Assembly (NCBI GenBank): GCA_009885535.1
Contig: VFKL01000154.1
Span: 1-32,010 of the forward strand
DNA: 32,010 bases
Reading direction: 5' to 3'
From: Chitinophagaceae bacterium
GTDB taxonomy: Bacteria; Bacteroidota; Bacteroidia; Chitinophagales; Chitinophagaceae
Part shown: positions 2,468 through 14,900 of the stretch, in pieces
Position numbering within the stretch: position 1 is the first letter of the stretch
Layout of the letters: each line of letters starts with the position of its first letter
Made by a program: the position numbers and the translations under genes
The notes under the pieces: model-generated
What the model was told of the DNA's origin: nothing
Databases searched by the model: none
The model's input: only the letters and a program-made list of their open reading frames with translations

Positions 2468-2481
2468 ATGGTTGAAACCAT
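2468..2481. repeat. Isolated palindrome related to the adjacent REP-like cluster
   Basis: ATGGTTGAAACCAT is a 6-bp inverted repeat around GA. It shares the GGTTGAAACC core with the hairpins of the REP-like cluster that begins about 25 bases away. On the minus strand it is followed by a run of eight T, so it could also act as a weak terminator for transcripts leaving the cluster. Otherwise the DNA from 2324 to 2507 is AT-rich with no coding signal that I can see. Confidence 0.5.
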
Positions 2482-2507
2482 TACACACAAGACAATGATT
2501 TCTTCCA

Positions 2508-2890
2508 CCCACGGTTGAAACCATGGGCTATGAAAAACAAATGCCGTCATAATCGTTTTAACGGTTTGCGTGAATAAAATCAATTTTTAAAAAATGACTT
2601 TGTTGTATCAATTGAAAAAAATCTTTACAATAGTATTTTATTGGAAATTATAAATTCCTTTTTTAGCCCATGGTTTCAACCGTGGGATATGAAAACAAAT
2701 GCCGTCATAACCGTTTCAACGGTTTGTGTGAATAAAATCAATTTTTAAAAAATGACCTTGTTACATCAATTGAAAAAAATATTTACAATAATATTTTACT
2801 GGAAATTATAAATTCCTTTTTTAGCCCACGGTTTAAACCGTGGGATATGTGATGAGTTTGTTGCTCCATAACCGTTTCAACGGTTTGCGT
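2508..2890. repeat. REP/BIME-like tandem repeat, two full units and one partial unit, each with two palindromes
   Basis: Units begin at 2508, 2667 and 2825, a period of about 158-159 bases. The first two are near-copies over their whole length; the third diverges after its first palindrome and stops near 2890. Each unit opens with a 20-base palindrome of the form CCCACGGTTTAAACCGTGGG. About 24 bases later comes a second one, AACCGTTTCAACGGTT (2551-2566, 2709-2724, 2870-2885). Both share a CGGTT/AACCG core. The opening palindromes of units 1 and 2 are exact reverse complements of each other. There is no ORF in the 2324-2987 gap. Paired palindromes in an intergenic gap are typical of REP/BIME elements mobilised in trans by RAYT transposases, but no transposase is present in this window. 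Confidence 0.8.
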
Positions 2891-11900: not shown

Positions 11901-14900
11901 ATTTGATACTAGTGTACTACCAATAATTGTTGATGGTGATAAAGGCGGATTTAAAATGGCGTTTGTTAATTTAACTCCTTTAAATGCGCTGTTGCCACAA
12001 CCAGAGAAAGCCAATACTTTAATACTATCTCTTGTTAATGCCGCTGCATTTGATGCAAATTTAATTTTGATTGTTCTTGATCTATTGATGTTTCCAGAAT
12101 CTATAGTTACACCTGATACGCCACCAACAGAAGTTGGTAACAACCATCTGTAACCGTAAGCATTTGCCACTGCTGAAGTTACCGTAAAACGATAAACACG
12201 TGCCGCACAATTGTTGCTTACTAATGTTTGTGTTATACCTGTTGGAGCGTTTGGTTTTACGGAATTTACCGTTACGATATATGTAATAACGCTATCACAT
12301 CCGTCAGCCTTTCTGAGTGTGATGGTATATGTACCTGCACTTGTAATACTAGTACCATTAAATGTATATGGTAAACTTGTAGTAGTACAAATAGCAGTAT
12401 CTATTGTACTGTATGTATTGTTTTGAGCAATTGTAAGATTTAATACCGCTATACTATCACATCCTGCAGCATTTGTTCCATTCCAAGTTCTTGTACCAGC
12501 TGTTGAATAAGTTACCCCATTCCAAACGTAGGTAATACATGCTGATACATTTGCTACAGATGAACTGCTTTTTCTAACGGTTAAGTTTAATGTAGCTACC
12601 GAATCACATCCCACAGCATTTGTCGTTGTGTATGTATAAACACCACTATTGGTATACGTTATGCCATTCCATAAGAATGAATTACAAATTGATTCTGTTC
12701 TTGTTGATGTACTGCCATACTTTACAGTTAAGTTCAATGTTGCTACTGAATCACATCCCACTGCATTTGCTGTTGTATATGTATAAACACCACTTGTGGT
12801 ATAGTTTACGCCATTCCATAACAATGAATTACAAACAGTTACTGAACTTGTTGAAGTGCTTCTGTAATTAACGGTTAAGTTTAATGTAGCTACTGAATCA
12901 CATCCTACAGCATTCGTAGATGTAAATGTTTTTATACCACTTGTTGTATAAGTTGTACCATTCCATAAGAATGAGTTACATACAGTTTCTGTTCTTGATG
13001 ATGAAGTGCTATATTTTACCGTTAAGTTTAATGTAGCTACTGAATCGCAACCACCAACATTTGTTGTATTGAATGTATAAATGCCACTTGTATTGTACGT
13101 TACACCATTCCATAACAATGAGTTACATACGGTTTGTGTAGATGTTGACGAATTGCTATAATTAACCGTTAAGTTTAATGTAGCTACTGAATCACATCCT
13201 GCTGCATTTGTTCCAGACAAAGTTCTTGTTCCTGAGGTGGTATAGTTAACGCCATTCCATTCAAATGAATTACAAGCCGCTTGATTTAAAACTGAAGATG
13301 TTGCTCTTCTTATTGTTAAGTTCGCTATCGCAAATGAATCACAACCGACAGCATTAGTTGTTGTAAATGTTTTTACACCACTTGTAGTGTAAGTTGTTCC
13401 ATTCCATATGAATGAGTTACATACTGTTTCTGTTATTGTTGATGATGAACTATTTTTGATTGTTAAGTCAACTATCGCAAATGAATCACATCCACTAGCA
13501 TTAATTGTATTATAAGTGTACACACCGCTTGCTGTATACGTTATATTATTCCAACGGAAAGCATCACAAGATGTTTGTGTTGTTGATGATGTCGTTGAAA
13601 GAGCAACAACATTTGCAGTTAGCGCAGTTCTAGTTGCAGATATACAACCTGTAACCGTATCTCTTGCTTCTGCATAATAAGTAGTGTTTGTTGAAATTGT
13701 TGGCGTTGTAAATGCATTTGTACCTAAAGCCATTAAAAATCCTCCAGTTGCACTATCATACCAATCAATTTTTGCTCTTGTGCTTGTAGTTGCAGAAAGC
13801 GTTGTAGTTCCTGTTTCACAAATATTAGCACCTCTTGAAGATGTAAGTATTGTTGGTAATGGGTTGATGTTAGCCGTTACAGTTGTTCTTGGATTACTTA
13901 ATATGCTACTATTCCCAGCAACAAAGTTTGATGAAGCTCCAGACAAAGTAAAATTGCTAACAGTACCATTATTATTATTGCCTGAAGCATCTAATGTTGT
14001 TGTTATTGTTGAATTATTTGCACTTGCTACACCTTGATTAAAATGATATGAAGCAACTAATCCAGATTGTTGATTTAATTCATTATATAAATTTGCTTGT
14101 ATCTCTGTTTGAGTACGAGCAACATTCCAAATCCTAACTTCATCTAAAGTTCCACTAAAGAATCTATCGTTACCCCAAGAACCAATTGTAAATGGCGTTG
14201 AACCTACAATACTAGGGAATGAATTGTTGGTTATTGTATTTTGTAAAATACCATTTACGTAAAATTTAAGTGTTCGAGTTGATGTTGAAGTTGAGTATAC
14301 TGCAGCTATATGATACCATGTATTTATGTTGAAACCATATGAACAAGCATTGTCATTGCCGCCATTTACATCAAAACGAATTTGATTCCCTGCAAATTGG
14401 AAATGAACCATTCCGGCTGACCATCCAATGTGATTAATTATTGACTTTACACCGCCAAAAGAATTTGAATTAACCCAAGCTTCATATGTTATATCACTAG
14501 TTGATGTAAAATTAGTGATGCTCGATGTTACTTTATCATTTAGACCATCAAAATTAATCGCGTTTGATGATTCAGATTGTGCTGAAATACAACCTGTTGT
14601 AACATCTCTCGCTACTACATAATATGAAGTAGAAGATAAAAGACTTGGCGTAGTGAATGTATTAGAGCCTACTAATAATGGCGTAGTTGATGTAGATGTT
14701 TCATACCAATCAACTTCAGTTCCTGCGGTAGAAGTAGCGATTAAGGTTACTGTATTGCCAGCACAACTAGACCCATTGGTAACCACAGGTTTAGCTGGTA
14801 TTGCATTTATCGTTAAGTTCAATGTTACCACACTATCACAACCTGTTGCATTTGTACCTGACCATGTTTTTGCACCCGATGTAGTGTATGTTGTTCCTTT

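Follow-up and report, generated by a model that had tools for sequence, protein, structure and literature searches.

How does a short palindrome come to stand beside its own mirror image, in units that otherwise read in the same direction? The question is raised by an intergenic repeat cluster in a 32,010-nucleotide stretch of a Chitinophagaceae genome (hereafter the window, corresponding to contig C70 of the assembly). The first-pass annotation had taken the cluster for a REP/BIME-like group whose first hairpin was flipped while the unit around it kept its orientation, a change that it found hard to explain by simple tandem duplication and took to suggest hairpin-level strand exchange or resolution. 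We favour, at a probability of roughly 0.8, a simpler reading in which orphan REP copies make up a BIME-like cluster, the mirrored palindrome is a polar REP carried within a larger three-palindrome element, and the second unit was created by recombination.

The palindromes of the cluster

Three different palindromes make up the cluster. Palindrome A (CCCACGGTTnnAACCGTGGG) is present in three copies at a spacing of about 158 bases, starting at 2508, 2667 and 2825 and ending at 2527, 2686 and 2844 (spacing 159 and 158), and palindrome B (AACCGTTnnAACGGTT) is likewise present in three copies, at 2551–2566, 2709–2724 and 2870–2885 (spacing 158 and 161). As three matches to A at up to three mismatches are observed in the window against 0.03 expected from shuffles, chance is ruled out for the A repeats. 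The third palindrome, C (AATGGTTGAAACCATT, plus strand, 2467–2482), opens the cluster and is found only ahead of unit 1, where it marks the left edge of a complete C-A-B element.

In unit 1, A1 (2508–2527) is a REP in minus orientation: the CTAT at 2528–2531 reads as an ATAG tag on the minus strand, and the reverse complement of A1 with its flanks, catagCCCATGGTTTCAACCGTGGGtggaag, fits the class of solo REPs described below. B1 (2551–2566, plus strand) reads AATCGTTTTAACGGTT. Unit 2 carries A2 in plus orientation, at 2664–2686 including its TAG tag at 2664–2666 (tttagCCCATGGTTTCAACCGTGGGatatg), and B2 (2709–2724, plus strand, AACCGTTTCAACGGTT). In unit 3, A3 with its TAG tag (2822–2844, plus orientation) is a perfect palindrome with a TTTAAA centre, and the spacer between it and B3 (2870–2885, plus strand, again AACCGTTTCAACGGTT) bears no relation to those in the other two units. 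BIMEs are defined as REP pairs of opposite orientation in tandem (PMC8266576); the window has such an arrangement, with A1 in minus and A2 and A3 in plus orientation, separated by linkers within a 158-base tandem repeat. The mirroring itself is exact, as first described: A of unit 1 (CCCACGGTTGAAACCATGGG) and A of unit 2 (CCCATGGTTTCAACCGTGGG) are perfect reverse complements of each other.

A polar repeat family

The genome surveyed, by pattern searches and sampled stretches, is a metagenome-assembled genome (MAG) of 2.57 Mb in 210 contigs that is 91.8% complete. Palindrome A is far from unique to the window, with 66 matches at up to two mismatches and none in the reversed-pattern control; palindrome B has 22 matches at up to one mismatch, with three in its control. 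Of the A sites sampled, 59 out of 60 fall outside open reading frames of at least 100 amino acids, although such frames occupy 65% of the sampled DNA. Palindrome A is a REP-like family of about 60 small, hairpin-forming intergenic repeats, on which no paper was found in the literature searched, most subscription journals lying outside its coverage. Its copies fall into two classes. Solo REPs follow the pattern tttcatag followed by CCCACGGTTTCAACCGTGGG, and many of them have in common an AT-rich leader of about 45 bases, ttccaacattttacaatttcaatctttacgacatttttcatag, 5' of the tag (examples at L045:280-660, L046:1500-1810, L047:1500-1700 and L052:1500-1660), hinting at a longer mobile unit. Most A copies sit in composite C-A-B elements, in which three palindromes are spaced at 36–43 bases (C to A) and 40–45 bases (A to B); across this genome and one sister species, 27 elements have C 36–43 nt ahead of A. 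The start of the cluster is one complete element of this kind. In most A copies within C-A-B the centre is the symmetric TTTAAA. Covariation in the stems is weak by corrected count, because the stems barely vary.

A is a polar REP, with an AG tag directly 5' of a hairpin that has a 9-bp stem and a TC/TA centre. The full tag is mostly ATAG or TTAG and rarely the canonical GTAG; as a tag is present and sets the polarity, yet is rarely GTAG, we regard the family as REP-like with a variant tag. When copies are oriented by the AG immediately 5' of the CCC arm, the centre reads TTTCAA from the tag in 25 cases to 0 in this genome, window excluded, and in 46 to 0 in other genomes, so that all 71 TC-centred, single-tagged copies outside the window obey the same polarity. 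Because the asymmetry of the centre is fixed to the tag, two REPs in opposite orientation are mirror images by default, and strand exchange beyond tandem duplication is unneeded. Mirrored inverted pairs are indeed ordinary in the family: in Flavobacterium, where they flank the Y1 transposase gene discussed below, they typically stand 60 bases apart, and alternating REP arrays are found at the glyS locus of two sister species, G011 and G017. A1 and A2 are thus very probably one polar unit in two orientations and not a hairpin flipped in place.

A second asymmetry is shared by the two. Units 1 and 2 both carry T at position 5 of A, a minority C-to-T variant that only 3 of the 76 TC-centred copies elsewhere possess. 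On the tag strand this T gives a T-G pair and on the other strand an A-C mismatch, with predicted DNA folds of -6.4 and -4.4 kcal/mol, respectively. Its presence in both units is more than independent origin predicts, and judged by this common T, A1 and the lineage of A2/A3 may have been copied one from the other.

How the second unit arose

What, then, produced the regular spacing? The first-pass annotation counted three units with a period of about 158 bases. The period holds for the spacing of A and B (158–161), but the true direct repeat, with a unit of 158 bases, extends over only 2.2 copies. Copy 1 (2534–2691, plus strand) comprises a spacer, B1, an AT-rich linker R and A2; copy 2 (2692–2849, plus strand) comprises a spacer, B2, a linker R' and A3 and is 93% identical to copy 1. 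Units 1 and 2 share all the sequence from the right of A as far as the next A, but their left flanks are not homologous. Units 2 and 3 have in common the left flank and A, as far as 'atatg', as well as B; to the right of A3, B is all that unit 3 shares with unit 2, and both the A-B spacer and the downstream sequence are unrelated. Since its right flank matches unit 1 and its left flank matches unit 3, unit 2 is, on sequence comparison, chimeric at A, with a putative junction inside the palindrome that joins the A3 side to the A1 side. As the entire left flank differs, unit 2 is something other than unit 1 with its hairpin reversed.

The arrangement C-A-B-R-A-B, with C in the first unit only, is found at five loci of this genome (the window and contigs C20, C6, C22 and C182), and the 158-base unit looks like the product of recombination between two A copies. 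A plausible starting state would be a complete C-A1-B1 element, with A1 in minus orientation, about 100 bases from an A3-B3 pair with A in plus orientation. The near-palindromic hairpin gives A1 and A3 about 20 bases in common, and unequal recombination or replication slippage between them probably duplicated the intervening 158 bases. The resulting unit 2 would carry a left flank and palindrome derived from A3 and a right flank derived from A1. A search of relatives for the orthologous intergenic locus gave no full-length match.

Could point changes have sufficed? A symmetric, double-tagged palindrome might have lost one tag, with the centre and position 5 changing separately in units 1 and 2. 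The symmetric TTTAAA centre of most A copies in C-A-B elements would provide such a starting point, elements with both tags or with none exist, so that stepwise changes are also available, and the same position-5 variant recurs in six further genomes within the order, as well as at L112 of the sister species G017 and at L138 of Flavobacterium. However, about four matching changes would be required, and units 1 and 2 do not have homologous left flanks. We consider this origin unlikely.

In-situ inversion, in which the A hairpin (about 22–24 bases) was turned round within its unit by cruciform resolution, by template switching in the hairpin or by RAYT-catalysed excision and reinsertion, seems quite unlikely to us. 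It would account for the mirroring of A1 and A2 at all four asymmetric positions of stem and centre, the minority variant included. Elsewhere in the genome, adjacent units on contig C22 read cataa-A-ctaaa and catag-A-ttaaa with homologous flanks, and an element on C107 reads catag-A-ttatg; at both loci the tag is switched and the flanks are in place. By tag position, 40 C-A-B elements divide into 28 tagged on the right, 4 on the left, 2 on both sides and 6 on neither; the left-tagged ones include C107 and, beside a right-tagged unit, C22. The tag bases on the two sides are associated (Fisher p 0.002, or 0.01 once unit 3 is dropped as a duplicate). This association is weak, though, and concerns three loci only, while elements with both tags (C56 and G017 L107) or with none (C6:32859 and G017 L114) indicate that single changes occur; in the window itself the differing left flank again speaks against a turned hairpin. 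The broader proposal that A was inverted in place by a Y1 transposase or by cruciform resolution, with the window, C22 and C107 as three independent switches, we regard as very unlikely; if true, it would mean that REP polarity can switch while the C-A-B element stays put.

Finally, it is extremely improbable that the hairpins serve the giant gene as functional RNA elements (terminators or 3'-UTR stabilisers) and are not mobile repeats: they do lie 3' of that gene (stop codon at 2988), but a separate, likely intrinsic terminator on the minus strand, from 2958 to 2923, stands ahead of the cluster along the transcript and would be reached first, the same elements recur at dozens of unrelated intergenic sites, and no Rfam family reached its gathering score in a search with the elements. 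The giant gene encodes PKD-like repeats and a type IX sorting tail, and the next gene encodes a two-component-regulator-propeller protein. About six imperfect tandem repeats of 147 bases, 72–80% alike, lie within the giant gene at 12559–13447.

The transposase and comparison with known systems

The REP/BIME-like character assigned at first sight is borne out: the palindromes are genome-wide, extragenic and paired both ways, and a matching Y1 transposase gene is present in relatives. In the sister species G012 and G011, a distinct Y1 gene (MSHSYYNVW...) carries A-type palindromes on its flanks, and an alignment search yielded 22 relatives in Chitinophagaceae, Flavobacterium and others. At each of the 12 Chitinophagaceae-like loci the gene adjoins glyS, and at nine of them nrdJ stands on the opposite side; in Flavobacterium it occupies one conserved locus in six genomes; such conserved sites argue for vertical inheritance and against IS behaviour. 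The protein at the glyS locus matches PF01797 (E 7e-26) and scores above the NCBIfam cut-off as an IS200 transposase and below it as REP_Tyr_transpos. The cognate gene appears to encode a small Y1 transposase that is RAYT-like and close to TnpA subclass 1.2.

Across 21 loci, the 20.6 kb lying up to 500 bases from the gene hold 40 GC-rich palindromes of 20 bases, and the 91.6 kb further out hold 6. Kinship among the loci inflates this contrast, and its p-value should not be read at face value. Palindromes of the form CCCA...TGGG lie within 500 bases of the gene at 14 of the 21 loci, with stems that vary by species (CCCACGG, CCCACCG, CCCACCA). At L144:2650-2870, a more distant transposase relative has CAACCGTTTAAACGGTTG, a B-type palindrome, as its flanking repeat. 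Three MAGs titled 'Streptomyces griseus' or 'Chitinophaga pinensis' (L135, L133 and L134) have a Chitinophagaceae-like glyS locus, and these names look unreliable.

In the genome that contains the window, glyS is present without a transposase gene beside it, and the cognate RAYT was not found elsewhere in this 91.8% complete MAG; the link between REPs and RAYT consequently rests on relatives, and the gene is likely absent from the rest of the genome as well. In G017, too, glyS is present and the transposase gene missing, and G017 keeps a REP array at the locus. Upstream of glyS in G017 (contig C152, L180:180-560), A-type REPs alternate where sister species have the transposase. Three other Y1 genes of the window's genome, on contigs C60, C79 and C58 (L039:1-950, L040:2900-3760 and L053:3380-4480), were considered as the source of the REPs and rejected, each being flanked by other palindromes (GCTCC..GGAGCGACCTG, TCGCTCCTCTGGAGCTA and CGCCGGTTTCCTAACCGGTG). 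With a distinct palindrome family beside each of the three, the REP families of this genome seem to number four or more. Most likely, an HuH/Y1 transposase of the IS200-like or RAYT type spread the REPs as single-stranded hairpins, and its gene was apparently lost from this lineage, which would leave orphan copies.

It is in Proteobacteria that REP/RAYT systems have been studied best. What the locus points to is a system of Bacteroidota: a small Y1 protein of the DHVH type with tagged palindromes of its own, a three-palindrome composite element, and lineages that lost the gene yet keep the repeats. Such lineages offer a natural test of whether REPs spread or decay after RAYT loss.

With the REP/BIME and TnpA_REP (RAYT) systems of enterobacteria, Pseudomonas and Stenotrophomonas (PMC8266576, PMC3733652), the family shares short extragenic palindromes tagged at the 5' end, pairs of REP and inverted REP, tandem copies and a Y1 gene flanked by the same palindromes, here seen in relatives. 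It differs in its tag, which is mostly ATAG or TTAG and not GTAG, in its short, near-perfect stem, in the three distinct palindromes per element and in the absence of the transposase gene from the genome. The REPINs of Pseudomonas fluorescens SBW25 are also inverted REP doublets, and tandem REPIN clusters that include the flanks are known (PMC3116915), as in the window; C-A-B, in contrast, consists of three different palindromes at set spacing and not of two copies of one, and A1 and A2 are 139 bases apart.

Among Y1 proteins, the glyS-locus protein resembles, by its motifs, TnpA subclass 1.2 of Cyanobacteria and Bacteroidetes (PMC6006769), being alike in length and in the DHVH, WQ and Y-I-K-x-Q motifs; the Y motif keeps its HH end only in part (YIKKQKLKH). 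Subclass 1.2 is generally without typical associated structures (PMC6006769), whereas the genes described here have cognate palindromes. Subclass 2.6, with atypical structures, likewise comprises Bacteroidetes Y1 genes with copies of the flanking structure elsewhere in the genome (PMC6006769), but its proteins are longer and carry NHxH and YIHxNP motifs, which places the DHVH protein in another lineage.
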